Positions 14,401 through 41,643 of a DNA stretch of 41,643 nucleotides are shown here, piece after piece. Origin of the DNA: a virus. A program made the position numbers and the translations under genes. Location: IMG/VR virus record IMGVR_UViG_3300032241_002223, positions 1 through 41,643 of that record; one strand, 5' to 3'. Under the pieces are notes generated by a model, which ran no database searches, was not told the origin of the DNA, and worked only from the letters and a program-made list of their open reading frames with translations. Each line of letters begins with the position of its first letter. Position 1 is the first letter of the stretch.

Positions 14401-14911
14401 AGATACCACAGGCACAGTAACAGAACCTACACCGCCCACAATCAATGATCTAACTACAACCTATTCAACGTTGCAAGATTACAAAATGATCAGCGACAAT
14501 ATGATTTTGAACAGCGTAGAATTTCAGCCCTTGTTTGGTCAAACGGCCGATGCAGCCTTGCGTGCCACTATCAAAGTGATTCGTAGTACACAGAGCACTG
14601 CCAGTACCAGTGAAATTACAAATCTTGTTGTGGCCAACATGGATGCATATTTTAATCTTGCTGCCTGGGACTTTGGACAAACATTCTATTTTTCAGAGTT
14701 GGCCGCTTACATACATCAAAACATTGGCGATGTGGTCAGCAGTGTGGTGTTGGTTCCATTAGATCCACAAAAGAGTTTTGGAGATCTTTACGAAATTCGT
14801 TGCGCACCCAATCAAATATTTGTCAACGGTGCCACAGTAAACGATATCGAAGTGATCACTGCATTGACCAGTAACAATTTACAAACTGCCTCTGGTAGCG
14901 GAGTAATCTAA
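11471..14911 (+). CDS. 6: Baseplate wedge protein gp6
   Basis: A core wedge subunit that dimerises to form the continuous inner ring of the baseplate. The N-terminus is highly characteristic: EADFQSYDFETLRKTFVDYL, then YYPETFNDYIESSEFIALLD, MAFMGQSLAFRSDLNNRENY and AERRDSVIKLANLVSYVPLR (about residues 24-112). A Baseplate_J-like middle follows (ITLNFGDGIFGSIPVG near residue 340; QRAPAQYYTQNRMVNGEDYS near residue 420). The C-terminal part has DFQVEVSFSYGYGEAIP and ends with ELAAYIHQNIGDVVSSVVLV. At 1,146 residues it is nearly twice T4 gp6 (660); the extra sequence lies mainly in the second half. The stop overlaps the next start (TAATG). Confidence 0.93.
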   Translation: MATTARQTYVFGIEDWKRIYQTYREADFQSYDFETLRKTFVDYLRLYYPETFNDYIESSEFIALLDVMAFMGQSLAFRSDLNNRENYLSTAERRDSVIKLANLVSYVPLRNTEASGYLKVFSVTTTENVTDYNGIDLANITVNWADPTNLDWQEQFNTIVNAALVNTQRVGRPGASQDILGVNTQEYTINLVPGYIPVVPYTSNVNGVNMPFEVVNSTSTGETYVYEPPPLPNGQFNILFRNDQLGFASANTGFFFLFKQGILQNQDFNLTERITNRAVDINIEGINNSDVWLYQLDNVGNISSYWQTVQNIYAAAVEQLAGNTQDIYSISSRTNDQITLNFGDGIFGSIPVGTFRTYVRASNGLTYIVNPAEMQSVSVPISYVSRTGSIETITFVCGITEPVTNAQARETIDEIKQRAPAQYYTQNRMVNGEDYSNFPFTQYNSILKSTAVNRASIGTSRYLDLVDGTGKYSSTNTFASDGALYEANTLPAFRFSWITSNDIANVVYNQINPLLAKAGLKQFYYANTIRPSLASLNLTWHQSTVITNECTGYFQDSTGTAIAVGIYASNNARYIQPSSLILFTAPDGYYFDENNQLHAGVPTAPGQHLTIWASPTAVYLNGTAQGLGNLPSGVGPVVLNTFVPTGAIPLLVIPVLVTDLGTTLEQEIVNQIYLNQNFGLGYTSVGVYDKNNNLVYPAQSWYLITATNLAVNATYSTNGAGDTSGTNQDASWFIQCTTNGTNYTVESRSLNYYFGSVAQTRFFFYSNQPIYDSRTGTVVRDFVNVLKINSRPDSNYPLPGDNILNIIDQPVLSDGLTDDFQVEVSFSYGYGEAIPSNPDFFNDIVAPSVNPTTKLVFFQQTVDFDNLQRYLMLNQGVVNSDFPTQSAILLSLTQYNIGQVFYAYTEQVFYVLTVNSSGNQTLTVDNSYLALTGRQDLYFQYRHNSPLSSRIDPGSTNIIDVYIVTNEYYTAYNNWLKDTTGTVTEPTPPTINDLTTTYSTLQDYKMISDNMILNSVEFQPLFGQTADAALRATIKVIRSTQSTASTSEITNLVVANMDAYFNLAAWDFGQTFYFSELAAYIHQNIGDVVSSVVLVPLDPQKSFGDLYEIRCAPNQIFVNGATVNDIEVITALTSNNLQTASGSGVI

Positions 14912-20900: not shown

Positions 20901-23900
20901 AGAAACTGGACAATACAATATCTATGAAAACTGGGGTGTGTTGGTTGGAACCTATGGTGCCAATGCCAACCGTAGCTACTTTGAAGTACTTCTTAATCAG
21001 GCCAATTTGACCAGCAACCCCAGCACAGTGCAGATCATCTATCCAGGTGAAACCAGCCAGGCCGATCAGACAGTCTTACTGCAAAATATTTGGAGTTCAA
21101 GTTATAATATTCCTTCTCCCGATATCTTGCCTACTACCTATATAAGCAGTACAAATACTGCATTACCGTCGGCTGGATATGTCAATCTTGATGATGTAGA
21201 TATCACTGTATTCAGTCTGGACGATCCGTCCAACATAGCCAGCCAAATCAACACAATTGGAACTGGTACCAGTATCTGGGTGGCCAAGGATAACAGTTAC
21301 AACTGGAACGTATATCGTTGTACCCAAATTCCAGGACGCATTACTCAGGTAACCGACAATCTCAACGGCACCAGTCTGGTAACACTGAGCCAGACCACTG
21401 GTCTTGCTGTGGGTGATCTAATTATTGTACGTTATTTTGCCACCGGAATCGATGGTGTTTATCGTGTCCTGGCCACGCCATCTATAAACTCTATTGTGGT
21501 TTCCTACTCGTTTACCAGTACCAGTCAAACTACCATTTACAGCAACGGCAACGGTCTAGTATGGCGCCTGCAAACCATGCGAGTCGCACAACCAAGTGAC
21601 GTGGCCTCCTTGCCATATGCCGGCGAGTTAGTGGCCGGTGCTAGAGCCTGGGTTGATAACAACGCATCAGGCTATTGGGAAGTTTTAGAAAAAACAGATC
21701 CTTACACTCAAGTAAGTACCTTAAATGCATCGCCTACACAGATCGATGATTTATTTGGCACCAGTGTCACACAACCCAGTGATAACAGTACCATCCTGAT
21801 AGGAACACCTGGATACGATGGCTCTGGATCTATTGACAGTTATTATCGTGCCGAAGGTGGTACCTATGTAAAAGGATCAGTAATAACAATCAATGCAGTA
21901 GATACCGTAGGCTTTGGCCAGGTAGTAACGTATGGCAATCAAAACTGGATCGCAGTAGGCGCACCACTCAGTAACGACAACAAAGGTTATGTAACAGTAC
22001 TCAATCAAGACAAGGTAAGCAATCGCCTGTTGACAACACAACTGATAGCATCTCCGGAATACTATCTAAACACACTGGGCTTTGGTACAGCAGTCAAAAT
22101 CAGTCAGGACGAACAGTGGTTGTACATCACCGGCCCAGGCCATAATCGTGTATATGCCTATACTCAAACCGACGAACCTTTACAGTCAGTTGAATATATT
22201 ACTGATGGTTTTTCGATTGTGTACAACTGGGCCAATTCAATCAAGGCCAATTATCAAAATCCAGAACAGTTTATAGTAACTTTAAATAATCGTGGACTGC
22301 AATATCAAGTTGATTATTCTATAACACCAAATGCAATACAGTTGTTTAAACCACCAGAATCCGGACAATTACTAACAATCAGTCGTAGAGCCACGATAGT
22401 TCTGGAAGGCGATGGATCTACCAGCGCCTTTAACTTGTCAGCATATCTTTACACCGTGACCAATATAGATAGTTTTACTGTCACTGTGAATGGCGTGTTG
22501 CAACGGCCTTACATTGATTACATTTATAATACTGGCAGCCAGGAAAATTTAGTCACGCTCGAAGGCGAATATTTACACACCGACTCAGGACAACAATTTG
22601 TAGTTAACTCAGCCAACACCGGATTGTTATTCACAGTGGCCCCATCTGCAGGTGCACAAATTTCAATTTTTGCTGGTACCTATTGGAACTATGTCACTAT
22701 CATTCCAACTGCTGGACTTGGGTTGGTAACTGGATCTAATTTTGGTAGTAGTCTAGACATCAGTGCCGATGGACGCACCTTGTTGATTGGTGCCGACAAT
22801 GTTGATACTACTGATGCCGAAGGCAACACTGTACCGCATGCTGGTGCAACCTATGTGTTTGATCGCAGTGTTATTAGATACATTGTCAACGATGTCACAC
22901 AAAAGATTTACCCAATGACTGGACCAATCAATGATCCAGTACAGGTCCTGTTGAACGGAACTTACTTGACCAACGTAGACTCGGTGATCAATGGTCAATT
23001 TAGTGTCGTAGGAACCAATGTCATACTGTCTGACTCGGTTACTTTAAATATCGGCGACGAGTTAGAAATCAATACCAATCAGTTTCAATTCGTACAAAAA
23101 TTATCGGCTAATACTCCAATTGACGAATCCTTGTATGGTGCGTCGGTTGCCCTGAGCCCAGACAGCGCCAGTGCGTACATTGGAGCTCCATACGATAGCA
23201 ACATATTCACGCAGGCTGGATCCATACAACATCAGGTCAATCAAAGTGTCAAGTATGGTGTGATTGTAAGCGACATAGCCAATCCCACTTTAAACCCAGG
23301 TGATACTATACGCATCAACAATGTCGAAGTTGTTGTTCCGTCTAGTCCAAACAACAACATAGCAGGATTAGCAGCGGCCATTACACCGTCTGAGTGGGTC
23401 AGTCAGCAGACCTACTATACCAACGATCGTGTGATATATCAAAATAATTGTTATGTTGCATTGACCAGTAGCACAGGACAAAAACCAGCTGGTACAAAAA
23501 TCAGCGCATCATTCTGGAAACTTAGTTTTATTATACCAAATGTTTCTGCTACATTGACCAGTAATCTTACATTTACTGGTAATGCAATCAACAAGGTATT
23601 TGATATTGGAAACTTATACTCATCGGCCAAATCCTATACCACAGTGGTATATGTTGACGGAGTATTGCAGACCAATGGAGTAGACTACACTTATAACAAT
23701 ACCACTCAACAGATTTTGTTTGTATCTCCACCGGCTGACTCGACTGTAATCACTGTGTTTGCAGGTCGTTTGATATTGAGTATAATCGATTCTAACACCA
23801 TACCACGATACAACAAACTTTCAGTATTGCCGGGCACAGTTGGCACAACATTCTATGACGTTGGATTTACCACTTATATCTATGCACAAACTGTGTACAG

Positions 23901-26900
23901 TCCAAACCCAGTCAACTACGGAGGATTTGGAGCCACGCTGGCTATTAGTACCGATTCTCAAACAGTAATAGTAGGGTCACCAAATGGCAATGCGTACGAA
24001 CGCATGGTATTTGACGGTGGTCATACCATATTTGATGAAAACAGTACTATTTTTAGTAATCCAGTTACTAACTCTGGAGTAGTGTACACATTTGACCTGT
24101 TGAGCAGTTCCAATCAATCAGCAACCAACCAAGCTCAGTTAGTGCCCGGCCAGCAGATTTACACCAACTCATTAGCAACAGGTGATAGATTTGGAACCGG
24201 CATAAATCTCACCAATGGACGATTAGTAGTAGGTGCACCCGGCGGAATCAGCTACGGAACAGCCACAACTTTTGACAACTTGCAAAATCTACCGGCCTGG
24301 AGACCAGTGCATGTACAACAACCAGTGGTTGATGTGAGTTTGATCAATTCTGTCTACTCATTTGACAAATTGTTAAGCAGTACACAAACCTATTATGATT
24401 TCATTGATCCATTGCAAGGCAAAATCTTAGGAGCAGCTCGCAGCAACATTGACTACATAGGTGCCGTGGATCCTGCCAGCTACAACAAGGGCACAGTACA
24501 TAATAATGGAACCACATGGGGAGCAGATCATGTGGGTGAAATTTGGTGGGATACCAACTTGGTACGATTTGTCAATCCAAATCAAGATGATATTGTGTAT
24601 GCCAGCCGTCGTTGGGGACAAACATTTCCAGGTAGTCGGGTAGACATTTATCAATGGATTGAAAGCTCAGTTCCGCCTGCACAGTACACAGGTCTGGGTA
24701 CTCCGTTGAGTACTGTCAGTTATACAGTAGGATCTGTTCTAGGACTCAACGGCCTGTTCTCGGCCACATACTATTATTGGGTAAGAAACATACCCACCAC
24801 AGACAGTGGCAATGGTAAAACATTAAGCACCACAGCCATTGCCAGTTACATTCAATACCCGCTTAATAGTGGCATTCCTTACATAGCACCTTTAAACGCC
24901 AGTACTGTGGCCCTGTACAACACCATATCAAACAATTTGATCAGTGCCAACAACACAGTGTTACACGTTGAATTTGAACGTCAAGCCGCAGGTGCCAGCA
25001 ACAACATACATCAGGAGTATGCGTTTATCACGGATGGTCGTGCAGAAAGTTTTTTAAACAACAGCCTGTACAGAAAATTGCAAGACAGTTTGTGTGGTGA
25101 GGACACCGCAGGTAATCCTGTGCCAGATCCATTCTTAAGTCCGGGGCAACGCTATGGAGTTGAATTCCGTCCAAGACAAAGCATGTTTAGTGATCGGTAC
25201 TTGGCCTTAGAAAATTATTTGACCAGAGTCAATACTATTTTAGCCCAGTATCCAATCGGTGAAACACGCAATTTTAGTTTGTTAAACAGCGCAGAGGCAA
25301 TTCCTACACCTGTGGTTTCCACAGCTACTAAATCCAACATACAGGGAGATCTGTTGACTCTGGGCGGCACAATAACAGGTTCCTTTGAAATTGGCATGAC
25401 CTTGTCTGGAAATGGCATTCCTCCATTTACCACTATCAATGGACTGGGTCCTACCGCAGGAACCTATATTATAGATACCAGTTTAAATTTGGACAGCGTG
25501 AATCTTACTGGAACAGCCGGTTACAACGGGCAAGTACCCACACTAGAAGTGCTGGGCTATCAAGACCTGTATGTAGTGCCACTGGGATACCTGTATCTAG
25601 TTGAGTCGGATTCTAGTCAAAATGGTCGCTGGACTGTGTATGAAGTAACACTTGACAGCACTGGATTTAACCGCACTACACAGCTGGTACGCATACAAAA
25701 TTATGACACACCACTCTATTGGAATTATATCAACTGGTATCTTCCTGGATACAACACTGACACACAACCGGTGGCACAGGTGCAAAACTCCGGAGATTTA
25801 TTAAGTTTAAGTTTGATCCAAGCACCAATTGGCAGTAGCGTGCAAGTGACCAACTACGGCAGTCGCGGTCTGTGGGAAATATTCCTGCGTACAGCTGGAG
25901 ATTTGACCATATCAGACTGGACACGAGTTGGCCTACAAAACGGCACCATTGCATTCAGCGAAAAGCTGTGGGACTACTCAGTGGGCCAATACGGATTTGA
26001 TGCGCAGGTATTTGATGTACAATATTTTGACCAGGAACCTGTGATTGAAACAAGAAATATCATACAAGCAATCAACGAACAATTATTTGTCGATGATCTG
26101 TTGATATTCCGTAATCAGTGTTTGATCTTGTTGTTTAATTTTGTTTACAGCGAATTTACAGCACCGGACTGGTTGATAAAGAGCAGTTTCATTGATGTAG
26201 ATCACAAGTTACGCGGCCTGTATCCATACCAGTTGTATCAAAAAGACAATCAAACCTTTGTGGAAGATTATATAAATGAAATCAAACCCTACCACGTACA
26301 AACTCTAGCATTTAATTTAATTTACGACGGGCTAGATACATACGGCGGCGAAATTAGTGATTTTGATTTGCCAGCCTATTGGAAAACAGATTTACAAATT
26401 CCACAATTTGTCAGCCCAGTCCTGACTCCGTACACACTGTCAGGAAGTCTGATTGAATCAATCAACAGCGACACCGCATCAAATGCCGCCGTGTGGTCAG
26501 AGTGGCCTTGGTCCGATTGGTTCAACAATTATACCCTGGAGATTGAGTCAGTAGAAGTGGTCAATGGCGGTAGTGGGTACACAGTGCCACCTACTATAGT
26601 TGTTACTGGTAATTGCATTGAGCAGGCCACTATGGAAGCAGTGATCAGTAATTCTGGTCGAGTGATAGGTGTAAATGTTTTAAATCCTGGAAAAGGATAT
26701 TTAAGCACAGCCATAATCACACTGTCAGGTGGCAACGGCACAGGTGCACAGGTAGTGGCAGTCATGAACAATAACCTGGTGCGCAGTTTCAAAACCACAA
26801 TAAAATATGATCGTTACCAGTATGCATCCACTATTCATGAATGGCAAGCTGACGTGACTTATACCGAAGGCAGTCAGGTACGTTGGAACAATGTAGTTTG

Positions 26901-29623: not shown

Positions 29624-29773
29624 ATGACTCAGAATAACCAGCAACAACCTGCACCCGAAGTAACAAAAACTCCACAAAAGCGTCCCAACGAAACCGGAAC
29701 TATTAGTGTACAGGGCTTTGTAAAGATTTTTGATCCTAACACACAAGAAAAATTTGTGGAGAAACGAGCATGA
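29624..29773 (+). CDS. Mini-protein of 49 residues, partial paralogue of the next gene's N-terminus
   Basis: A short frame starting ATG at 29624. It opens with a Gln/Pro-rich stretch (MTQNNQQQPAPEVTKTPQKR) and ends ISVQGFVKIFDPNTQEKFVEKRA split over the final residues. The second half parallels the N-terminus of the following protein: GFVKIFDPNTQEKFVEK against GFVKITDPNTGEVLVDK. It sits in the 16-base gap after the giant gene stop and overlaps the next ATG (ATGA). A TAAATA lies five bases before its ATG and no Shine-Dalgarno is visible, so it may be weakly translated or be the remnant of a duplicated gene. The parallel to its neighbour argues it is or was coding. Confidence 0.6.
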   Translation: MTQNNQQQPAPEVTKTPQKRPNETGTISVQGFVKIFDPNTQEKFVEKRA

Positions 29774-30390
29774 TGATTCAACCTGGACTGGCCCGAATTG
29801 AAGGCTTTGTAAAAATTACAGATCCTAACACTGGCGAAGTGTTGGTAGATAAAAAGAACGCCATACATTACGAAAATATCAGTATTGCCATGGCTTGTAC
29901 CTTGAGCAACAGAACTTCTGCGCAGGGCGGTGGTTGGATCTATGCCATGGCCTTTGGTAACGGCGGCAGTGCAGTAGATCCTACTGGTGTTATTACCTAT
30001 TTGCCACCTAACACTACCGGGCAAAATGCCACCTTATACAACCAAACCTACGCCAAAATAGTTGACGATAACTCGGCTACTGATCTAGATCCGGCCAACA
30101 ACTATATGACTGTTCTGCACACATCAGGACAACCCTATACAGATATTGTAGTTACTTGTACCCTGGACTACGGTGAGCCAACTGGTCAACAGGCCTTTGA
30201 TAACAGCACCAATTTTAATGGTGAATACGTGTTTGATGAGCTGGGTCTACAGACTTACGGAACCAGTGCTGCAGATTTGATGTTGATCACCCATGTGATT
30301 TTTCATCCAGTACAAAAGAGTTTAAACCGCCAGATACAGATTGATTATACCCTGCGGATACAGACTTTGACAAATTTAAGTGCCGCATAA
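29770..30390 (+). CDS. Tail-tip/baseplate structural protein, unknown exact role
   Basis: 206 residues. It begins MMIQPGLARIEGFVKITDPN, followed by IHYENISIAMACTLSNRTSA, WIYAMAFGNGG and a beta-rich remainder (YTDIVVTCTLDYGEP; EYVFDELGLQTYG; LLITHVIFHPVQKSLNRQIQ). The FGNGG turn and the EYVFDELGL segment are typical of short virion structural proteins in aquatic T4-like phages that join fibres to the baseplate. No T4 protein can be named; a gp8- or gp10-like role is possible from position after the gp7-like gene. ATG at 29770 or 29773 are both possible; GGAG at 29758-29761 gives an 8-base spacer to 29770, which also makes an ATGA overlap with the mini-protein. Confidence 0.72.
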   Translation: MMIQPGLARIEGFVKITDPNTGEVLVDKKNAIHYENISIAMACTLSNRTSAQGGGWIYAMAFGNGGSAVDPTGVITYLPPNTTGQNATLYNQTYAKIVDDNSATDLDPANNYMTVLHTSGQPYTDIVVTCTLDYGEPTGQQAFDNSTNFNGEYVFDELGLQTYGTSAADLMLITHVIFHPVQKSLNRQIQIDYTLRIQTLTNLSAA

Positions 30391-30440: not shown

Positions 30441-31721
30441 ATGTCATACACAATTAACCTAACTGATGGCGCTATATTTGCTGTCATTCCTGACGGTACA
30501 ATAAACACCAGCAGTAGCATGACGCTGGTGGGCAAAAACTATGCCGGTTACGGTCAATTCTTAGACACCAATTTTATACAACTGTTAGAAAATTCATCCA
30601 ACACTACTCCTCCTGGAGCACCGCTTACAGGTCAGTTGTGGTGGGACAGCGGAAACAGTCTATTACAAGTTTACAACGGATCACAGTGGAAAACAATTAG
30701 TAGTGCTACATCCAGCTCAACAGCACCAACAAACAACGTCCAGGGCGATCTTTGGTATGATAGCGGACAACAACAATTAAAAGTTTGGACAGGAACCACA
30801 TGGTTATTGGTTGGTCCTAACTACAGTAGTGGTACTGGTGTCACTGGAGCATTTGCCAGCGTAATCGTCGACAATGCTACCATCAGTCACAAGGTAATTG
30901 AATTGGTTGTAAACAATGCTGTCATCGGTATTGTCAGTGAAGATGCATCATTTGTTCCACAAAGTACTATTCCAGGTTTTGCCAACGTAAATCCTGGCAT
31001 ACAGTTGGCCAGTACAATAGGCGGTCAAACTCCACAGTTCTGGGGCAATTCAAGTGGCACCAATCAGTTGAACGGATTGACCAGTAGTCAATTCATGCGT
31101 GCCGATATCAATACACAGACCACAGGTACACTTGGTGTTGTTAACAACACTGGATTAACGGTAGGAGCAGGACAAGACTTTAGAGTCAGCGTAGCCAATA
31201 CCAATGTTACAGTGGCCAATCAAACGTCAGGCGGCAACATTGCCTTTGTAGTAAACGTAGCAGGAACACCTACCACAGCAATGACTATTTTTGGTGCCAA
31301 CGGTACAATCCAAGGCACACAGATCACAGCGCAATATGCTGACGTTGCTGAACGCTTTGAAGCCGATGCTGTTTTGGAAGCAGGTACAGTGGTTGAACTG
31401 GGCGGCTCTGCAGAAATTACTCAAAGTACTACGGAATTGAGCGACAAAGTGTTTGGGGTCATAAGTACGCAAGCAGCATATCTAATGAACAGCTCAGCTG
31501 GTTCCGATGCAACACATCCAGCAGTGGCCATGACCGGACGAGTTCCTGTAAGAACCATTGGTGCAGTACGCAAAGGCGACAGATTAGTTTCGGCTGGCAA
31601 CGGCCTAGCTCGAGTGGCTCAGCCAGGAGAAGCTACAGCGTTTAACGTGATTGGTCGTGCGCTCAAAGACAAATTGGATAGTGGCATAGGTACTGTAGAA
31701 GCCATAGTCACAATCAAATAA
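30441..31721 (+). CDS. Tail fibre-like protein with possible C-terminal self-cleaving chaperone-type domain
   Basis: 426 residues. The N-terminus has two copies of a short module common in fibre proteins of aquatic myoviruses: GQLWWDSGNSLLQVYNGSQW (about residues 63-82) and GDLWYDSGQQQLKVWTGTTW (about 102-121). The middle is beta-rich and repetitive. From about residue 297 a distinct domain begins (QYADVAERFEADAVLEAGTV), continues KVFGVISTQAAYLMNS, and has VAMTGRVPVRTIGAVRKGDR near the end. This order (YA...E.FE, GTVV.L, GVIS, GRVPV...G.V..GD.L) resembles the Peptidase_G2/intramolecular chaperone domains at fibre C-termini that help trimer folding and may cleave themselves off. Cleavage here is not demonstrated. 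CGGAG supports the start. Confidence 0.75.
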   Translation: MSYTINLTDGAIFAVIPDGTINTSSSMTLVGKNYAGYGQFLDTNFIQLLENSSNTTPPGAPLTGQLWWDSGNSLLQVYNGSQWKTISSATSSSTAPTNNVQGDLWYDSGQQQLKVWTGTTWLLVGPNYSSGTGVTGAFASVIVDNATISHKVIELVVNNAVIGIVSEDASFVPQSTIPGFANVNPGIQLASTIGGQTPQFWGNSSGTNQLNGLTSSQFMRADINTQTTGTLGVVNNTGLTVGAGQDFRVSVANTNVTVANQTSGGNIAFVVNVAGTPTTAMTIFGANGTIQGTQITAQYADVAERFEADAVLEAGTVVELGGSAEITQSTTELSDKVFGVISTQAAYLMNSSAGSDATHPAVAMTGRVPVRTIGAVRKGDRLVSAGNGLARVAQPGEATAFNVIGRALKDKLDSGIGTVEAIVTIK

Positions 31722-32819: not shown

Positions 32820-33128
32820 ATGGATACTGAAAAACTTGTAGCACATGCTCGCACCCGTTTTGATCACGCAGCCGCCCGGCGAGTACTCAAAGAAAAGTAC
32901 CAAGCCAAATTAACTTTTGCCTATCGCGGAGGCATGTGGCAGGCTGGCCCTGAATTGCATTCAACCATCTTTACATGCGGACGTATGGGAGAAGTAGTGT
33001 TGCTGGACTTATACAAAAATCCAATTAAAATTGATACCAAAGAACTGATGGCATTAAGTCAAGAACGCTTTAACGAGCAAATGAATGCCTGGTTTATAGA
33101 ATACGAAGAATTAAATCAAAATAGATGA
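32820..33128 (+). CDS. Small conserved-type phage protein, function unknown
   Basis: 102 residues, soluble and mostly helical: TEKLVAHARTRFDHAAARRV, then LKEKYQAKLTFAYRGGMWQA, a central strand (EVVLLDLYKNPIKID) and a C-terminal amphipathic helix (LMALSQERFNEQMNAWFIEY). I recognise it as similar in style to short hypothetical proteins of T4-like cyanophages but know of no function. No Shine-Dalgarno precedes the ATG; with a -10 box ending at 32813, a leaderless message is possible. The stop overlaps the next ATG (ATGA), so it heads the accessory operon. Confidence 0.75.
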   Translation: MDTEKLVAHARTRFDHAAARRVLKEKYQAKLTFAYRGGMWQAGPELHSTIFTCGRMGEVVLLDLYKNPIKIDTKELMALSQERFNEQMNAWFIEYEELNQNR

Positions 33129-33889
33129 CCACTGGTGCTTTGATCTTTGCGTTTAATAATGCACATGTTGATTATGAAGCCATGGCTCGCTGGTCAGCCG
33201 GCAACATTGAACGGCACCTTGGCATACCTACAAGAATAATCACCAATCAAGATCTTGATCCAGTTACTGGCCCTTTACGCACCTTTCAGGATCTCCCCGG
33301 ACAAGTAACCTGGTACAATTTTAATCGAGTTGATGCATATCGACTGACTCCGTGGGATCGTACTTTGTTGTTAGATGCCGACTATGTAGTGGCCAGCGAT
33401 CAATTGAAACCGTTGTTGGAGCTGGATCAAGATTTTGTAGCACACAAAACAGCATACGACGTTACCAACAAAGACAACTTTGATGAACTCAACACATTTG
33501 GTCGTAACTGCATGCCCATGTGGTGGGCTACTGTGGTAATGTTTAGGCGTAGCCAGCAGGCCGAATTAATATTTGATTCAATGCAAATGATCAGAAACAA
33601 TTGGCAACACTACTGTGCTCTGTATGGCATTTCCAGGTCAACCTACAGAAACGACTATGCGTTGAGTATTGCCTTGGGCATAGTAAATGGGCATGTCTTA
33701 AATCATGCTGACATTCCATGGTCGTTGGCCACAGTTACACACGAACATCAACTAACACAGTTGGACCAGGACCAATATCGAGTTGACTGGATTGATCGAG
33801 ATCAACGTGCTCGTTGGATCAAAATCAATCATGACTTTCATGCCATGGGCAAAGGATATTTAGGAGCAATAGTTGCCAATCACAGCTGA
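33125..33889 (+). CDS. Glycosyltransferase-like protein (GT-A type) 1
   Basis: 254 residues. It starts with TGALIFAFNNAHVDYEAMAR, a first strand and helix as in nucleotide-sugar-binding folds. TWYNFNRVDAYRL is followed by TLLLDADYVVASD; the DAD at residues 84-86 corresponds to the DxD metal-binding motif of GT-A enzymes that use a nucleotide-sugar. A middle segment MPMWWATVVMFRRS resembles the acceptor-side region of GT8-type proteins, and the C-terminus has INHDFHAMGKGYLG, where a His and Gly/Lys could help bind diphosphate. Donor and acceptor cannot be read from the sequence. It overlaps both neighbours (ATGA upstream, 17 bases downstream), so it belongs to one operon with the next transferase. 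Confidence 0.7.
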   Translation: MTTGALIFAFNNAHVDYEAMARWSAGNIERHLGIPTRIITNQDLDPVTGPLRTFQDLPGQVTWYNFNRVDAYRLTPWDRTLLLDADYVVASDQLKPLLELDQDFVAHKTAYDVTNKDNFDELNTFGRNCMPMWWATVVMFRRSQQAELIFDSMQMIRNNWQHYCALYGISRSTYRNDYALSIALGIVNGHVLNHADIPWSLATVTHEHQLTQLDQDQYRVDWIDRDQRARWIKINHDFHAMGKGYLGAIVANHS

Positions 33890-34601
33890 ACGTGGATATC
33901 TTATACCGGCCATTGGTGATACCTATGTGACCTGTGCCAACAGGTTGCGCGATAGCATATTAAAACATCATCCTACAGCCGAAGTAACTATTGTGACCAA
34001 AGACTCCTTGCCCTACGGAGACCTGGGCGGATTTGCTAACGACTGGCAGATGTTCGCAATTAGTCCGTACCGCCAAACCATTAAACTAGAAGCCGACATG
34101 ATTGCTGCCAGCCCAATCGATCATTGGTGGACCTTGTTTGAACAACGCGATGTAGTAATCAGTCAAGGTTGTAGAAACTACTATGATCAACCTGGACTAT
34201 CGCGTAGATATCGAGCAATATTTGACAACAATTATTTGCCGGATGTTTACAATGCTGTTACCTATTGGCGTCGTAGTCAAACAGCCAAAGAATTTTTTGA
34301 TCTAGTGCGTGAAATTTTTACCAACTGGGATCGGTATAAGGTACTGTTGCGATTTCCAGACGACGTAGCAACAACCGATGTAGTCTATGCTATGGCAACA
34401 ACAATCATCGGAGTTGAGCAGGTCACGTTACCGTTGGGTATGGGGCCAAGCATAGTGCATATGAAACAGCACATGATTGGCACTGTCACTGACAATTGGA
34501 CCAAAGAGCTAACATGGGAACAAGATCCTGTTAGAATCAACACAGTAGCACAGTGGGGATTAGTACACTATCACATTAAGGAGTGGGCAAATGAGCAATG
34601 A
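33873..34601 (+). CDS. Glycosyltransferase-like protein (GT-A type) 2
   Basis: 242 residues starting with TTG at 33873. AGGAG at 33862-33866 with a 6-base spacer selects this start; no ATG is available nearby in frame. The N-terminus RGYLIPAIGDTYVTCANRLR is a strand-helix unit. RQTIKLEADMIAASPIDHWW holds EAD at residues 73-75 in the place of the DxD motif. The rest (VYNAVTYWRRSQTAKEFFDL; TTDVVYAMATTIIG; GPSIVHMKQHMIG) follows the same plan as the preceding protein, so the two are probably distant paralogues. Substrate is unknown. The TTG start inside the upstream gene suggests coupled and perhaps reduced translation. Confidence 0.68.
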   Translation: MPITAERGYLIPAIGDTYVTCANRLRDSILKHHPTAEVTIVTKDSLPYGDLGGFANDWQMFAISPYRQTIKLEADMIAASPIDHWWTLFEQRDVVISQGCRNYYDQPGLSRRYRAIFDNNYLPDVYNAVTYWRRSQTAKEFFDLVREIFTNWDRYKVLLRFPDDVATTDVVYAMATTIIGVEQVTLPLGMGPSIVHMKQHMIGTVTDNWTKELTWEQDPVRINTVAQWGLVHYHIKEWANEQ

Positions 34602-34875
34602 ACAAGATAAAATCAAACACAAAACACGTATGCACCGTGCGTGGACCGCAATTAAAAAACAACTTGGCATCATCAAACAGCGAAAACATTTTGGTGATGC
34701 AAGCCGTCGCATTGATGAAGCACAACCACATCGCCTGGCCAAAAAACACGCCATGGATTGTGGACAACCTGGATGTGTAATATGCGGTAATCCACGACAC
34801 AACAAGTTTCACAAAGGTAAAGATCAATTGACCATTCAAGAACGCAAGGCTTTACAGAAAAAAGATGACGAATAG
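34591..34875 (+). CDS. Small basic protein with a Cys/His cluster
   Basis: 94 residues, strongly charged and basic: KTRMHRAWTAIKKQLGIIKQ, then AQPHRLAKKHAMDCGQPGCV and ICGNPRHNKFHKG. The arrangement C-x4-C-x2-C followed by two His residues could bind one zinc ion. The RLAKKHA.DCG...C..CGNPR stretch occurs in short hypothetical proteins of bacteria and phages whose function I do not know. AAGGAG about 8 bases upstream of the ATG is one of the best ribosome-binding sites in this operon. It overlaps the transferase before it by 11 bases and the next gene by 11. It could be a nucleic-acid- or partner-binding protein. Confidence 0.72.
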   Translation: MSNEQDKIKHKTRMHRAWTAIKKQLGIIKQRKHFGDASRRIDEAQPHRLAKKHAMDCGQPGCVICGNPRHNKFHKGKDQLTIQERKALQKKDDE

Positions 34876-35203
34876 TACCGACGACAATTTCTGGTTAGCA
34901 TGGTCTCAGCAGGTCCCGCTAGAAATCAAACCACCATCTTATCGAATGTACTACGACGAGTTAGGTGATCCGCTATTTTTCAGTATGGAGGATTTGCCAG
35001 GTAACTATGTAGAAGTCACGCCGGAGATGTTTGCGGTTGGCGCCACAAATTGTCGTGTAATTGACGGCAAGTTGGTTGTATTTAAAACAACAACAGATCC
35101 ACACAAATTGGTACCCAGTGACACAGGAACTGCCTGCCATCCGCAGGATGTCTGCATCGTAGTAGACGAATCAGAACCACACGTAAAATGGAGTTTGAAA
35201 TGA
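34865..35203 (+). CDS. Small conserved-type phage protein, function unknown
   Basis: 112 residues, acidic. DNFWLAWSQQVPLEIKPPSY leads into a compact beta domain: YYDELGDPLFFSMEDLPGNY, then VEVTPEMFAVGATNCRVIDG and KLVVFKTT. The MEDLPGNYVEV and RV.DGKLV pattern is one I associate with short hypothetical proteins of large aquatic phages, without a known function. The N-terminus overlaps the Cys/His protein by 11 bases and its stop lies inside the next start (ATGA), so it is translated together with the following glycosyltransferase. It may be an accessory subunit of that enzyme. Confidence 0.72.
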   Translation: MTNSTDDNFWLAWSQQVPLEIKPPSYRMYYDELGDPLFFSMEDLPGNYVEVTPEMFAVGATNCRVIDGKLVVFKTTTDPHKLVPSDTGTACHPQDVCIVVDESEPHVKWSLK

Positions 35204-36135
35204 TAATGCAGGTAACCGGAGTAGACGTAGCAGACCTAGACTGCATATATCTCAGCTATGATGAACCCAACAAAGAAGAAAACTGGGTGCGTATCAAAAA
35301 CATGGTGCCCTGGGCACGCAGAGTGGATGGTGTCAAGGGTAGTGATGCCGCACACAAGGCAGCTGCGGCTGCCAGCGCCACTGATCGATTTGTTTTGATT
35401 GACGGCGATAACATTCCAGATGAAGCATTTTTCAATGAACGTCTGGTACTAAAAGCCGATGATCATCGCGGAGTATTTCGTTGGCGTGCCCGCAACACAA
35501 TCAACGGACTCATGTACGGCAATGGCGGATTATCATGCTGGACCAGAGAGTTTGTACAAAACATGCGCACACACGAAAACACAGACGGCTCTGCAGCCAA
35601 CGATGTGGAGTTTTGTTTCTATCCTGATTATCATGCCATGTACAACTGCTACTCAACAACTTATCCCAATGCCACACCGTTTCAGGCCTGGCGTGCCGGA
35701 TTCAGAGAAGGTGTCAAAATGTGTCTCAATCAAGGTGTTCGCCCTACTGTGGCCGAATTCCAAGAGCGTGTACATCATCGTAACCTTGATCACTTGACTA
35801 TCTGGCACAATGTGGGTCGTGACGTAGACAATGGTATCTGGGCCATAGCTGGCAGCAGAATGGGCACCTATATGACCATGCTGACCGACTGGGACTATCG
35901 TTCAGTGCAGGACTTTGATGCACTGGAACGCTTGTGGTCTACTGTGGCTGATAGCAATCCAGAACTCCTGGCTGGACGTGTGGCCGAAGATCTTGCTACA
36001 CAACTGGGTCTGCCTATCAATTTGATGTTGGAAAAAGAAAGTGCCTTTTTCAAACACCACTATCGTAGCAACTGGCAAAATCGTCATTTCATGACCAAAG
36101 AAATTGATGTGATCAGAAGCCAAGAGGGCTGGTAA
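35200..36135 (+). CDS. Glycosyltransferase-like protein (GT-A type) 3
   Basis: 311 residues from ATG 35200, chosen over the in-frame ATG at 35188 because GGAG at 35190-35193 has a 6-base spacer and because it gives the ATGA overlap usual in this operon. DLDCIYLSYDEPNKEENWVR and PWARRVDGVKGSDAAHKAAA are followed by RFVLIDGDNIPDEAFF; DGDN at residues 68-71 is the DxD-type metal site. RVDGVKGSDAAHKAAA may line the nucleotide pocket. A mid-region GLMYGNGGLSCWTREFV and the C-terminal FFKHHYRSNWQNRHFM are further family-like blocks. The style matches hypothetical sugar transferases in cyanophages. Donor and acceptor are unknown. Confidence 0.72.
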   Translation: MIMQVTGVDVADLDCIYLSYDEPNKEENWVRIKNMVPWARRVDGVKGSDAAHKAAAAASATDRFVLIDGDNIPDEAFFNERLVLKADDHRGVFRWRARNTINGLMYGNGGLSCWTREFVQNMRTHENTDGSAANDVEFCFYPDYHAMYNCYSTTYPNATPFQAWRAGFREGVKMCLNQGVRPTVAEFQERVHHRNLDHLTIWHNVGRDVDNGIWAIAGSRMGTYMTMLTDWDYRSVQDFDALERLWSTVADSNPELLAGRVAEDLATQLGLPINLMLEKESAFFKHHYRSNWQNRHFMTKEIDVIRSQEGW

Positions 36136-36140
36136 CTACC

Positions 36141-37523
36141 ATGAGTTCTAAATTTATGAGCAGTGCCGAAGATATGAAAACTGCGCTAGGCCCTGCTATG
36201 TGTTTGGCCAAATGGAAACAGGTCAGTCTACACTTGCCCACAGGTCTTAACAACTCATGTTATCATCCGCCCTTGCATGAAATACCAGCCGACCTGTTGA
36301 CTGACAATCCCAGCGCACTGCACAATACACCGCACAAGAAACAACAACGTAAGATCATGTTGCGGCAGGAACGTCCTACGGAGTGTAGTTATTGTTGGGC
36401 CATGGAAGACAACGGCAAGTTAAGTGACAGACACTACCGCTCGGGCGAGCCCTGGGCCGCAGTAGATTTTGAAACCATAATGAATTCCTCAGGAGATGAA
36501 AATGTTGTTCCTAGTTATGTTGAAGTTAATTTTAATCACGCCTGTAATTTGGCTTGTAGTTACTGTAGCCCGCAGTTTAGCTCAACTTGGCAAGCAGAAG
36601 TTGATAAATGGGGTGGATATCCTACTGGCACTATACACAATGATCCTAGCCACTTTACTGGGCGCAATCGTCCTATCCCCGTTCGTGAAGATAACCCTTA
36701 TGTAGAAGCTTTTTGGTCTTGGTGGCCTACCCTGTATCCAGAACTCAAACACTTTAGAATGACCGGTGGTGAACCCATGCTGGACAAGAACACCTATCGT
36801 GTGTTTGACTATGTGTTGGCCAATCCCAAGCCGGACCTGCATTTGAATGTTACTTCAAACTTTAGCGTGGATGAAAAGTCATGGCAACGATACAAGGGCT
36901 ATGTAAAAGAACTGTGCAAAGGTGAGCAGATTGAACACTTCATGCAGTATGTGAGTTTAGATTCGTGGGGCGCACAGGCCGAATATATTCGTCACGGTTT
37001 AGATTTTAATCTCCTATGGGATCGCGTAAATCAGTTTTTAACAGAGATTCCAGGTCGTAACAGCATCACGTTTATTGTTACTATGAACAACTTGTCGGTC
37101 ACCAATCTCAGTAGCTTGTTTGCTGGCATCTTGGGGTTGCGCAAGTTATACTCAACAACATATCAGCGAGTATGGTTTGATACTCCTGTACTACGTCAGC
37201 CCACCTGGCAGAGTCTACAGATCTTGCCCGACAGTTATGCAGAACAATTAGAACACCTATGGGCCTGGATGATACGTCAAATTGAACAGGAAGATGATCC
37301 TTTCCATGGCTTCAAAGATTACGAAATAGCCCGACTGGATCGCGACATAGCCTGGATGCGCGATGGACAGAAGCTTGATCCAGAATATGTTGCTCGTAAC
37401 AAAGCCGACTTTTATAGATTTTTTTCAGAAGCTGATCGCCGCCACGGCACAGATTTTCTAAAGACCTTCCCAGAGATGACCACCTGGTGGGCAGAATGCG
37501 AGTATCATGCTAGGCAATCGTAA
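36141..37523 (+). CDS. Radical SAM protein with N-terminal cysteine (twitch-like) cluster, copy 1
   Basis: 460 residues. The radical SAM motif CNLACSYC (C135, C139, C142) binds the [4Fe-4S] cluster that cleaves S-adenosylmethionine; TGGEPM (GGEP at 209-212) contacts SAM. Before the core lie four further cysteines: MCLAKWKQVSLHLPTGLNNS with C21, then C40 in SCYHPP, and ECSYCW with C82 and C85. They suit a second iron-sulfur cluster in an N-terminal twitch-type domain. Most SPASM/twitch proteins carry it after the core. The C-terminus ends with FFSEADRRHGTDFLKTFPEM and a tryptophan pair. A radical reaction on a sugar or peptide is expected; the substrate is unknown. It shares the full cysteine pattern with copy 2 at 38561. 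Confidence 0.9.
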   Translation: MSSKFMSSAEDMKTALGPAMCLAKWKQVSLHLPTGLNNSCYHPPLHEIPADLLTDNPSALHNTPHKKQQRKIMLRQERPTECSYCWAMEDNGKLSDRHYRSGEPWAAVDFETIMNSSGDENVVPSYVEVNFNHACNLACSYCSPQFSSTWQAEVDKWGGYPTGTIHNDPSHFTGRNRPIPVREDNPYVEAFWSWWPTLYPELKHFRMTGGEPMLDKNTYRVFDYVLANPKPDLHLNVTSNFSVDEKSWQRYKGYVKELCKGEQIEHFMQYVSLDSWGAQAEYIRHGLDFNLLWDRVNQFLTEIPGRNSITFIVTMNNLSVTNLSSLFAGILGLRKLYSTTYQRVWFDTPVLRQPTWQSLQILPDSYAEQLEHLWAWMIRQIEQEDDPFHGFKDYEIARLDRDIAWMRDGQKLDPEYVARNKADFYRFFSEADRRHGTDFLKTFPEMTTWWAECEYHARQS

Positions 37524-38580
37524 GTTAGTTGTAGACACATTCAGTGAAATATCTGATTTGATTCAGCCCTGTATTGATGCAGAGTTTTGGGATTTTGCCC
37601 AGCATGATATTGTTCCAGGTGCTATCTATGTGATTGGTCGAGAACAGTTCTGTCTCAATCGCGACCGTATAGTAGATCTTATACAGGATCAAATCATTGA
37701 TGTTGTTTTTAGCAATCCAGCCGAGGGCTCTGAAACAGTAATGACCCATTGTGAATTTGGATTGAAAGTCATGCATCTGCTGGAGCAAGAACGCCTGCCA
37801 ATCATCACCGGCGGTGCTATACCAGATCAGTATCCGCATCTGTTGTACGAAAGCTTCTTGCCCAAGTTGCTGGACTACGATGAAAATCTTGAAGCGGCAA
37901 GACAATATCAAGATCAGTATACCACACAACGTCCTTACAAGTTTTTATTTTTAAATGGACGACGACGCGAACATCGTGCTCAAATGATCAGTTTGCTGAC
38001 ACCAGTACTGGATCAGGCCTTGTGGACCAATCTAGATAGTGGCAACGGGCCAGTGCAACTATTGCCCACAGGCTATGAACCCGACACATTTGACTTGACT
38101 GTGAATACTGCATCTTCAGTTGGCCTGATCAAGAATCAACTGTTCCGTGGTATCTGGGGTGAAATATATCTCAAAGCACGTCCTTATCAGGAGACCTACT
38201 TTAGCGTGGTTACTGAAACGGTTCACAGATATCCCCACAGTTTCAGAACAGAAAAAATATGGAAACCCATAGCTATTGGACATCCGTTCATAGCTGTAGC
38301 CAATCGCGGATTTTATCGAGACCTGCACAATCTAGGATTCCAGACATTTGCACACGTGATCGATGAATCATTTGACTTGATTGATGATAACCATGCTCGT
38401 ACTGTGCGATGTGCCGAAGTGATACAGGATTTGTGTCAACAAGATCTTGCAAGTTTCCTTGACGAGTGCTATAATGTATGTAAATACAATCAGCAACATC
38501 TCGCAGACATGCGGCTACAAGTCCGTGCCGAATTTCCTCAACGCTTTGAAAAATTTATACGTGAACGATTTAGAGTTTAA
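37507..38580 (+). CDS. Glycosyltransferase-like protein (TEKxxKPIxxGHPFI signature) 4
   Basis: 357 residues. The middle has YKFLFLNGRRREHRAQMISL (144-163), a strand and basic helix. The C-terminal half has YFSVVTETVHRYPHSFRTEK and then IWKPIAIGHPFIAV (251-264), followed by LGFQTFAHVIDESFD. The combination S.VTET...F.TEK..KPI..GHPFI and a final GF.TF..IDES.D is shared by many phage and bacterial proteins thought to be fucosyltransferase-like or exostosin-like sugar transferases of GT-B type. Specificity is unknown. It starts 17 bases before the stop of the first radical SAM gene and itself overlaps the second, so it is translationally coupled to both and probably acts in the same pathway. Confidence 0.75.
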   Translation: MLGNRKLVVDTFSEISDLIQPCIDAEFWDFAQHDIVPGAIYVIGREQFCLNRDRIVDLIQDQIIDVVFSNPAEGSETVMTHCEFGLKVMHLLEQERLPIITGGAIPDQYPHLLYESFLPKLLDYDENLEAARQYQDQYTTQRPYKFLFLNGRRREHRAQMISLLTPVLDQALWTNLDSGNGPVQLLPTGYEPDTFDLTVNTASSVGLIKNQLFRGIWGEIYLKARPYQETYFSVVTETVHRYPHSFRTEKIWKPIAIGHPFIAVANRGFYRDLHNLGFQTFAHVIDESFDLIDDNHARTVRCAEVIQDLCQQDLASFLDECYNVCKYNQQHLADMRLQVRAEFPQRFEKFIRERFRV

Positions 38581-39901
38581 ACAACAGGTCCTAGACCCAA
38601 AAAGCGCCAGCTTCTGTGCAGCCAAATGGTACAATGCTACCATCTGGTTGGGATCGGGCCAGACCACCTCGTGTCATCATCCACCGGCACATGCCATCGA
38701 CGCGGAAGAAATCAAAACACGTCCCAGTGCCATACACAACACAGTACAAAAGAAAATAGATCGACTTAACATGCAGTTGGGCAATCGTCCTCGCGGTTGC
38801 GAATACTGCTGGAAGATCGAAGACATGGGTCGCGATGCTGTAAGTGACCGCGTGTACAAGAGTAAAATTTATCCCCTGGAGGCCTTAAATGAAGCATACA
38901 CAAAACCACACCAAGAAGACGTCAATCTTCGCACACTTGAAATCGCATTCGATCGCACTTGCCAATTTGCTTGTAGCTACTGTAACCCTGCTTTCAGTAG
39001 CACATGGGTTCGCGACATACGATCCAACGGTGCCTATGACGGCTTGGTGTCTGATGGGCGTGGCCACTTTACTCATGCTCACGATAGCAGTCAACTATAC
39101 CGCTTTGGCGAAACGAATCCCTATGTTGAAGCGTTTTTTCGTTGGTGGGAAACAGATCTACATCAGACTCTTCAAGAATTAAGAATCACCGGTGGGGAAC
39201 CATTGATGTCAGGCGAAACCTGGAAGCTCCTGGACTGGTTCAAACAAAACAAAGGTCGTAGCACTACAAGACTTGCTATCAACAGCAATCTTGGCGCCGA
39301 GGTAGATATTGATCGCTTGTTGTCTAGTATAGAAGGAACCGAGGTAGATATCTATACCAGTAACGAAAGCGTAAGTTCACAAGCAGAATATATTCGCGAC
39401 GGATTAGACTATTCTGCTTGGTTGTCAAACGTTCAACGCTTATTAGATTCTCCCAACATCAGAGCTGTACACTGTATGGCCACCATCAATGCCCTGTGTT
39501 TGATTGGCTTGCCCGACTTGTTGGATCAGTTGGTCGAGTTTAAGAAAAAGTACGGTCGTGAACGAGTAAGTTTTACATTGAACATATTGCGTTTCCCCAG
39601 CTTCCAAAGCCCGTTAATTTTGCCTAGCTATCTCCGCCGCACATTTGAATTAAATCTACGTGAGTGGAGATCAAATCATCTAAATAGTCGATTGATGCAC
39701 GAACACGAGCTCGATCATTTACAACGATTAATTGACTACTTGGATGTGGTCAAGACGCCGCACAGTGACGCATTTGAAATGCCCGAGCTACACAACGACT
39801 TTAGACAATTTTTTACACAGTACGATCACCGTAGAAATAAAAACTTTACAGAAACATTTCCTTTATTAGCCAACTGGTACAATGACATACAAATACAATA
39901 G
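38561..39901 (+). CDS. Radical SAM protein with N-terminal cysteine (twitch-like) cluster, copy 2
   Basis: 446 residues from GTG 38561. The frame is open further upstream (TTG at 38447), but that would overlap the preceding gene by 134 bases. GTG 38561 aligns with the N-terminus of copy 1; TTG 38546 is an alternative, and neither has a clear Shine-Dalgarno. Cysteines match copy 1 almost position for position: C19 and C38 (FCAAKWYNATIWLGSG; SCHHPP), C80 and C83 (GCEYCW), then CQFACSYC (C134, C138, C141) and TGGEPL (GGEP at 211-214). The end, RRNKNFTETFPLLANWY, parallels copy 1. The two are tandem paralogues separated by a transferase gene and probably share a type of chemistry, on unknown substrates. 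Confidence 0.88.
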   Translation: MNDLEFKQQVLDPKSASFCAAKWYNATIWLGSGQTTSCHHPPAHAIDAEEIKTRPSAIHNTVQKKIDRLNMQLGNRPRGCEYCWKIEDMGRDAVSDRVYKSKIYPLEALNEAYTKPHQEDVNLRTLEIAFDRTCQFACSYCNPAFSSTWVRDIRSNGAYDGLVSDGRGHFTHAHDSSQLYRFGETNPYVEAFFRWWETDLHQTLQELRITGGEPLMSGETWKLLDWFKQNKGRSTTRLAINSNLGAEVDIDRLLSSIEGTEVDIYTSNESVSSQAEYIRDGLDYSAWLSNVQRLLDSPNIRAVHCMATINALCLIGLPDLLDQLVEFKKKYGRERVSFTLNILRFPSFQSPLILPSYLRRTFELNLREWRSNHLNSRLMHEHELDHLQRLIDYLDVVKTPHSDAFEMPELHNDFRQFFTQYDHRRNKNFTETFPLLANWYNDIQIQ

Positions 39902-41138
39902 CGCAGATTTAGTACAACCAGTAGAGCTAACAGAACGTGAAGAATTCTTATTAAAAGATTCAAAAACGTTTTGTATCTACCCATGGATACACCTACACGC
40001 TTACCCTACAGGTGAAGTATATCCTTGCTGTCATGCCGAAATGGCATATCCTGTAGGCAACTGTCATTACAAGAGTCTTGAAGAAATATATCGCGACGCA
40101 CCCATGCGAAAACTTAGAAAAGACATGCTGGCCGAAAAGCCAAACCCTGCTTGCGGCCGTTGTTATGAACAGGAAGAATCAGGATTCTTCTCGGGTCGCC
40201 GCAGTGCCAACAAACACCACGGACATCATATCAAACGCATTGATGATGACCAATTCCAAATGAGCTATTGGGATATACGTTTCAGTAACTTGTGTAATCT
40301 TAGTTGCCGTAGTTGCGGACATATCTTTAGTTCAAGTTGGTATCAAGATCAAGTGACCCTAGCTGGTCCTGTCTGGGCTGCTGAAAATAAACCTCTCAAC
40401 ATTGCCGGGCGTAATAAACAAGACATGTGGAAACAGTTAATTCCACACCTGGATTATGTAGAACAAATATACTTTGCTGGTGGTGAGCCGCTTATGATGG
40501 AAGAACACTACAACATTCTTGATGAGCTAGAGCGTCGTGGACGTTTTGATGTACGTTTAATTTACAATACCAATTTTACACACACTCGATTAAAAGACCG
40601 CACAGTATTTGATTACTGGAAACGATTTAAAAAGGTAGCAGTTGGCGCCAGTTTGGATGCCATGGGCCCACGTGCTGAATACATACGCAAAGGAACTGAT
40701 TGGGATCAAGTAGAACGGAATCGTTACAAAATGTTAGAAATCTGCCCAGACGTTGATTTTTATATAAGTCCGACTCTCAGTATAATGAATGCCTTGCACC
40801 TTCCGCAGTTTCATCAAGACTGGACTAATCGTGGACTAATTCGTGCGCAAGACTTAAATGTAAATATCCTACAAGACCCCGCACATCTGCGGATCGACAT
40901 TGCTCCTATCAAATATAAACAACGCATACGGCAGGCCTATACAGAACATTTAGAATGGTTGCGTCCCCAAGATCCTCTACAGCGTGCCACGGTAGGATTT
41001 GAAAGTGCTATCAATTTCATGATGGCCACAGACAATACTGCGTTAATTGATCGTTTTTGGTCAAAAACGAATGAACTCGATGCTATCAGATCCGAACAAG
41101 CACTAGATGTTATTCCAGAATTAGAAGCATTACTATGA
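39882..41138 (+). CDS. Radical SAM protein with N-terminal twitch/SPASM-like domain, copy 3
   Basis: 418 residues. The N-terminal domain is of the other subtype: FCIYPWIHLHAYPTGEVYPC with C31, then C49 and C50 (PCC), C61 (GNCHYKSLEEIY) and CGRCYEQEESG with C91 and C94. This is the cysteine layout of a SPASM/twitch domain placed before the core. The core has CNLSCRSC (C138, C142, C145) and AGGEPL (GGEP at 200-203). The protein starts 20 bases inside copy 2 and its stop overlaps the start of copy 4 (ATGA). Families with the PW......G...PCC block before CxxxCxxC are annotated as twitch-domain radical SAM proteins; some modify peptides or sugars. The substrate is unknown. Confidence 0.9.
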   Translation: MTYKYNSADLVQPVELTEREEFLLKDSKTFCIYPWIHLHAYPTGEVYPCCHAEMAYPVGNCHYKSLEEIYRDAPMRKLRKDMLAEKPNPACGRCYEQEESGFFSGRRSANKHHGHHIKRIDDDQFQMSYWDIRFSNLCNLSCRSCGHIFSSSWYQDQVTLAGPVWAAENKPLNIAGRNKQDMWKQLIPHLDYVEQIYFAGGEPLMMEEHYNILDELERRGRFDVRLIYNTNFTHTRLKDRTVFDYWKRFKKVAVGASLDAMGPRAEYIRKGTDWDQVERNRYKMLEICPDVDFYISPTLSIMNALHLPQFHQDWTNRGLIRAQDLNVNILQDPAHLRIDIAPIKYKQRIRQAYTEHLEWLRPQDPLQRATVGFESAINFMMATDNTALIDRFWSKTNELDAIRSEQALDVIPELEALL

Positions 41139-41643
41139 AAATACCACACGATAAATTCTGTGTACTTCCTTGGGTCAGTTTAGAAACCAGTCCTATCGGA
41201 ACGGTACGGCCTTGTTGTCTAGCCGAAGATGAATTAACCGACGATACAGGAGAAAAATTCAATCTAGCTTCCGCCAAATTCAGCACCATACAAAACAGCG
41301 TCAGTATGCGTCGATTGCGTGAACAGTTCTTGGCCGGTGAACAGCCTCAAACCTGTAGAAAATGTTGGCGGGAAGAACGTAGCGGTCGCACCAGTAAGCG
41401 TATGCACACTCTGGATAGACTTAAACACATGCTGGATGATACCGACTGGACTGCCAACGCTAAACCACTTATGTTCCTGGATCTTAAGTTGGGCAATATC
41501 TGCAATCTAAAATGTCGTATCTGCGGTTCATGGTCCAGCAGTAGCTTTGCCATTGAAGAACTGGCTGACCTAGAACCTGGCACAGATAAAAAATCTAGTT
41601 TTCATTATCAGATGTTGCGTAACGGTGCATGGCCTAGAGAAAA
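41135..41643 (+). CDS. Radical SAM protein with N-terminal twitch/SPASM-like domain, copy 4; 3' end outside window
   Basis: The first 169 residues are visible. FCVLPWVSLETSPIGTVRPC (C9, C27) and C28 repeat the layout of copy 3, followed by SMRRLREQFLAGEQPQTCRK with C74 and C77. The radical SAM motif CNLKCRIC (C123, C127, C130) comes next. Copies 3 and 4 are thus paralogues of one subtype and copies 1 and 2 of another. The GGEP motif and C-terminus lie beyond the window edge. The ATG overlaps the upstream stop (ATGA). The operon continues to the right, so its end and any further genes cannot be described. Confidence 0.9.
   Translation, partial: MKIPHDKFCVLPWVSLETSPIGTVRPCCLAEDELTDDTGEKFNLASAKFSTIQNSVSMRRLREQFLAGEQPQTCRKCWREERSGRTSKRMHTLDRLKHMLDDTDWTANAKPLMFLDLKLGNICNLKCRICGSWSSSSFAIEELADLEPGTDKKSSFHYQMLRNGAWPRE

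Follow-up and report, generated by a model that had tools for sequence, protein, structure and literature searches.

A conserved cassette of N-twitch radical SAM genes in T4-like jumbo phages and its possible role in tailoring a surface glycan

We show here that radical SAM genes of five subtypes (A to E), all belonging to the family NF033640 (N_Twi_rSAM), occur in near-constant order in a large lineage of uncultured jumbo phages, with a glycosyltransferase (GT)-like gene, X, between A and B. The feature was first seen in a single phage record, as four such genes in tandem, and is real but was understated by the first-pass annotation: in relatives there are five members, the GT-like gene lies inside the set, and the set is near-constant in the lineage. 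We suggest, as the best explanation though a tentative one, that the block is a glycan-tailoring cassette in which A–E and the neighbouring GT-like genes act on a surface glycan. This suggests, without amounting to proof, that phages rebuild a sugar coat by radical chemistry.

Results

Genomic setting

The DNA analysed (hereafter the window, all 41,643 bases of it) comes from IMG/VR record IMGVR_UViG_3300032241_002223. Its left part carries SbcCD-like genes, a late sigma factor and T4-like baseplate and tail genes, and the cassette follows the tail and baseplate genes on the same strand (Table 1). Since the gp6-like baseplate protein is nearest to those of Agrobacterium phage Atu_ph07 and of 121Q-like and RaK2-like jumbo phages (~33%), in agreement with the size of relatives of 315–353 kb, we most likely have before us part of the genome of a T4-like jumbo phage. 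The T4 late promoter TATAAATA had 0 matches, which weighs neither way. About one-third of the window is occupied by a single ORF (14911–29607, 4898 aa) that matches the virion structural family phrog_10938, and a fibre-like protein (30441–31721) has, towards its C-terminal end, a match to the autoproteolytic domain Peptidase_G2.

Table 1. Position and main properties of the cassette genes and their upstream neighbours in the window
Feature	Position	Strand	Length (aa)	Properties
P31	31736..32746	+	336	Conserved between tail region and GT-like genes; 76 contigs
G1	33125..33889	+	254	GT8-like candidate (weak)
G2	33873..34601	+	242	GT8-like candidate; phrog_1903
s1	34591..34875	+		Small gene; phrog_4499; ~20 relatives
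s2	34865..35203	+		Small conserved gene; 98 contigs
G3	35188..36135	+	315	Upstream neighbour, conserved; GT2-like by a weak match to PF13641 (E 0.0024, below cut-off)
Radical SAM A	36141..37523	+	460	NF033640 E 7e-90; auxiliary C21-x18-C40-x41-C82-x2-C85; core C135xxxC139xxC142
Auxiliary cysteine segment of A	36201..36395	+		All four Cys in 104/104 orthologues
X	37507..38580	+	357	GT-B-like glycosyltransferase candidate between A and B; not radical SAM
Radical SAM B	38561..39901	+	446	GTG start overlaps X stop; NF033640 E 5.5e-83; Cys pattern of A
Radical SAM C	39882..41138	+	418	N-terminal SPASM-like domain C31, C49C50, C91, C94; core C138/C142/C145; NF033640 E 7.6e-116; PF13186 E 5.4e-11
Radical SAM D, 5' part	41135..41643	+	169 of ~405 (~40%)	Open at contig end; C9, C27C28, C74, C77; core C123/C127/C130; NF033640 E 5e-40; PF13186 E 1.1e-5

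Four radical SAM genes do lie within positions 36141–41643, as first annotated, but the row is broken by X, which separates the first two copies. The overlapping stops described along A/X/B/C/D are real and range from 4 to 20 bp (A/X 17 bp, X/B 20 bp, B/C 20 bp, C/D 4 bp), the start of B having been reset to a GTG inside the end of X, which gives the orthologue length.

We regard G1, G2, G3 and X as weak glycosyltransferase candidates. The predicted model of X (pLDDT 90) found almost exclusively GT-B enzymes in Foldseek (best E 1.9e-4, TM only 0.3–0.5); X had no sequence or profile match in NCBIfam or the PDB, a Pfam B12-binding match far below cut-off, and no relative among isolated phages. 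The combined G1 and G2 profile matched glycogenin weakly (E 0.026), PDB sequence searches with the X and G3 profiles returned nothing useful, and no family match was obtained for the neighbours F and P31.

A to E as one N-twitch family

All four window genes score in NF033640, with A (302 bits), B (279 bits) and C (387 bits) above the cut-off of 170; D reaches 138 bits because it is truncated, its complete orthologues scoring ~330–350 bits. At the N-terminus, C and D additionally score against PF13186, the SPASM family (43.1 and 26.1 bits; gathering threshold 21.5 bits), whereas A and B have no match. The cysteine patterns proposed earlier were recovered: each of the four ORFs carries CxxxCxxC behind a cysteine domain, with C-x18-C-x41-C-x2-C in A and B, and FC..PW......G...PCC followed by C-x2-C in C and D. 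The two subtypes drawn from these patterns hold as two cysteine styles within one twitch-type family, since the A/B and C/D/E profiles align over 408 columns (E 2e-36).

In every subtype the auxiliary cysteines precede CxxxCxxC, a further conserved Cys lies in or behind the core, and the CxxxCxxC and GGE motifs by which the radical SAM superfamily is recognized are invariant. The auxiliary domain (C..C..CxxC, as in NF033640) is N-terminal to the core in all orthologues, and its cysteines are invariant in 104 (A), 96 (B), 97 (C), 88 (D) and 78 (E; C11/C29/C30/C82/C85) orthologues; being conserved in all orthologues of A–D, they are not a chance occurrence, and they are candidate ligands of a putative auxiliary [4Fe-4S] cluster. 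The predicted model of C (pLDDT 88.7, pTM 0.88) matched radical SAM enzymes of the PDB mostly over the core, and also full-length proteins from Vibrio phage KVP40 and uncultured Caudovirales. We found no N-twitch member with a known reaction in the literature and solved structures searched, and NF033640 itself carries no assigned reaction.

Conservation across phage contigs

Scanning viral contigs twice yielded ~107 distinct IMG/VR contigs, in which the recurrent order is P31-s0-G1-G2-s2-G3-A-X-B-C-D-E-F-H; within it A-X-B-C-D-E is the commonest arrangement, with occasional X-like or C-like insertions. What follows D, at the point where the window ends, is in relatives a fifth N-twitch radical SAM gene, E, and downstream of it H, a NodU/TobZ-type carbamoyltransferase (PF16861 E 1.8e-47, phrog_1601 E 7.5e-89). 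The carbamoyltransferase-like gene at L006:16116–17585 is conserved and lies two genes past E. In some phages C is duplicated (L010:9581–12600 and similar), and some C genes have N-terminal extensions. Because the ~107 contigs had been chosen for A or C, the upstream structural gene at 29770–30390 was used as an independent marker: A was in place in 43 of the 50 marker contigs with enough downstream sequence, and some of the other 7 may have A beyond the flank. The four genes thus fall neither into unrelated families nor among unlinked singletons: they are one family, and the linked set is kept throughout the ~107 contigs. Subtype order and mostly overlapping stops persist down to ~54–62% identity, and median dN/dS values of 0.06–0.10 for A, X, B, C, D and E indicate strong purifying selection. 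Among isolated phages, the only relatives approaching the set were Vibrio phages K566/K567 and a short marine fragment, at ~24%.

The source virus is related to T4-like jumbo phages of 300+ kb in which further NF033640 members are scattered. Eighteen large relatives contain 7–21 matches each (E up to 0.001), and the 12 records of 315–353 kb contain 11–21 each, at a threshold that also fires in control genomes, none of whose matches passes the family cut-off. Above that cut-off, and among the matches listed, there are at least 14 in one of these genomes (G002) and at least 11 in another (G012); in both, taken in full, five members form the cassette and the others are scattered. Mostly, the other family members in these phages are singletons beside unrelated genes. 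A-type Fe-S carriers (PF01521; for example G002:C1:291782–292099) occur in 12/12 large relatives, mostly two each; in one case the carrier gene stands two genes ahead of one of the scattered N-twitch radical SAM genes.

Bacterial relatives

Of 192 sampled genomes from the phylum to which an Oligoflexia MAG belongs (treated here as Bdellovibrionota), 54 had NF033640 members above cut-off, often with many copies each; the phylum of a Bacteroidota MAG gave 2/198. In Bdellovibrionota (L213–L242, L267–L280) N-twitch radical SAM genes are unusually numerous, and often have members of other radical SAM families and GDSL-type proteins as neighbours. Identity to bacterial proteins reaches 52% for B and 48% for E. 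One bacterial genome (G027) has genes of E, D-like, B (two) and A type adjoining, and one of C type ~11 kb off; GT2, nucleotidyltransferase and GDSL-type genes neighbour this cluster. Strong B was also present in five of the six genomes with strong E (hypergeometric 4e-7, or 2e-4 among family-positive genomes, p-values that related MAGs inflate).

In a tree made by a quick method, with many long branches, A–E form five groups. Bacterial sequences branch together with B and with E at 100% SH-aLRT support, and with A and with C at weaker support, while D is without a clear bacterial sister; A and B are nearest each other, yet each stands beside bacterial relatives. Tandem duplication within the phage, for which a phylogeny had been proposed as the check, is therefore not supported for the whole set, A, B, C and E falling beside separate sets of bacterial relatives.

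Considering that the divergence of the five subtypes long predates the cassette, and that the many family matches in large relatives are mostly scattered, the five could be a loose collection from an expanded family, each catalysing a separate single-step reaction and made neighbours by history rather than by a pathway. We think this improbable, although it deserves weight: order and mostly overlapping stops are kept across the ~107 contigs despite their divergence, each subtype is strongly selected, and B and E occur together in bacteria too. The same co-conservation and co-occurrence help the earlier proposal of a multi-step radical pathway, which we infer from them; the idea of one pathway is weakened by most other family members being scattered singletons.

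Glycan genes in the neighbourhood

In 14 bacterial regions, picked for several family members or A/E types, the Bdellovibrionota neighbours included 8/77 glycosyltransferases (6 GT2, 2 GT1-type) as opposed to 0/68 in the control (Fisher p 0.007), a comparison in which a single control GT could be hidden because only the 25 commonest control families were listed. Counted against the same 25 families, DegT proteins made up 2/77 bacterial neighbours and none of the 68 control proteins, and other radical SAM proteins 13/77 and 0 of 68; since the latter outnumber the GTs, the bacterial setting is not purely a glycan one. Bacterial relatives adjoin GT2, DegT aminotransferase and ABC-2 exporter genes; G3 homologues, like X-like genes, are also present near bacterial N-twitch genes. 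In Vibrio phage K566 a distant, independent cluster has the order radical SAM-GT8-radical SAM-radical SAM-GT4-like, with another GT8, PagP and LpxC. The company kept by these genes in Bdellovibrionota, and in Vibrio phage K566 with its GT8, LpxC and PagP, points to the biosynthesis of surface glycans. The K566 locus itself (L166, 145584–178750), with its radical SAM, GT8, GT4-like, PagP and LpxC genes, is likely an LPS-remodelling island.

Discussion

If the block is a glycan-tailoring cassette, the GT-like proteins G1, G2, G3 and X and the radical SAM enzymes A–E would work jointly on a surface glycan, to which in relatives the NodU/TobZ-type carbamoyltransferase would add carbamoyl groups. 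The core [4Fe-4S] cluster of each radical SAM enzyme would generate a 5'-deoxyadenosyl radical able to abstract hydrogen from a sugar or a sugar-linked position, while the N-terminal auxiliary cluster may hold the substrate or accept an electron; the outcome could be oxidation, epimerization, deoxygenation or cross-linking. The purpose would probably be an altered host surface polysaccharide or LPS during infection, or decorated tail fibres. In a stronger form of this proposal, which we consider doubtful, the five radical SAM enzymes of the phage lineage would make up one fixed pathway, paralleled in Bdellovibrionota, whose product in infection is a new kind of surface glycan, radical-modified and probably carbamoylated.

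Against a glycan substrate stands the fact that SPASM/twitch enzymes often act on peptides, and that the Foldseek matches of C include peptide maturases. The solved SPASM relatives are in fact largely peptide or protein maturases (the sactipeptide thioether enzyme 5wgg, anSME, SkfB, SuiB), and the position of the cassette after the tail and baseplate genes would suit A–E acting on a virion protein, such as a tail fibre or the giant upstream structural protein, in the manner of RiPP systems with several maturases per precursor. Such a role is nevertheless unlikely, given that no gene stands out as a precursor (only ~20 contigs have s1, while s0 and s2 are at most candidate precursors), that bacterial and Vibrio-phage relatives lie among glycan genes and that in relatives E is followed by a carbamoyltransferase of the sugar type. 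Hypermodification of phage DNA can be the work of carbamoyltransferases and glycosyltransferases, and viperin comes out on top for the radical SAM core in a profile search of the PDB (E 8.6e-5), but a role in making hypermodified bases or viperin-like nucleotides is very improbable, since the 12 large relatives contain no gene of the thymidylate synthase/hydroxymethylase family, which rejects a route via hydroxymethyl bases, and the viperin matches are confined to the core, the best to prokaryotic viperin (NF038283) reaching 22 bits against a cut-off of 180.

Returning to the glycan-tailoring cassette, it has partial parallels among known systems. NF033640 accommodates all four window genes; what is particular here is that its members come as five constant subtypes in a single conserved cassette. 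BtrN, which oxidizes an aminocyclitol (PMC9012708), and MoaA likewise have one auxiliary-cluster domain besides the core; in these enzymes, as in anSME and PqqE, the domain is C-terminal, in keeping with a review that describes SPASM/twitch domains as C-terminal extensions (PMC9012708), whereas in A–D it is N-terminal. In the Vibrio phage K566/K567 island, too, distant N-twitch radical SAM genes form a cluster with glycosyltransferases in between, but at ~24% identity, without the A, B and E subtypes and with LpxC and PagP in addition. A T4-like environmental genome, TARA_ERS488813_N000010, resembles our phages in combining many radical SAM genes (12) with an A-type Fe-S carrier, and differs in being that of a marine phage of 183 kb and in that the passage on it gives the radical SAM count without a conserved cassette or glycan link (PMC5332604). 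In pelagimyophages, the host-recognition region contains radical SAM cassettes and glycosyltransferases, yet the cassettes there are variable, while ours is fixed and belongs to another lineage, one of jumbo phages (PMC7029224). Because T4-like phages with many radical SAM genes had already been reported (PMC5332604, PMC7029224), what is new is the fixed cassette, together with its counterpart in bacteria; the family and such phages are known, and the fixed cassette seems undescribed, no description of it having been found in the open-access literature searched.

Finally, a cassette near-fixed across a wide jumbo-phage lineage, bacterial counterparts and a nearby carbamoyltransferase together narrow the question of the substrate to something testable. 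If the glycan-tailoring proposal is true, it would mean that phages remodel glycans through radical chemistry.
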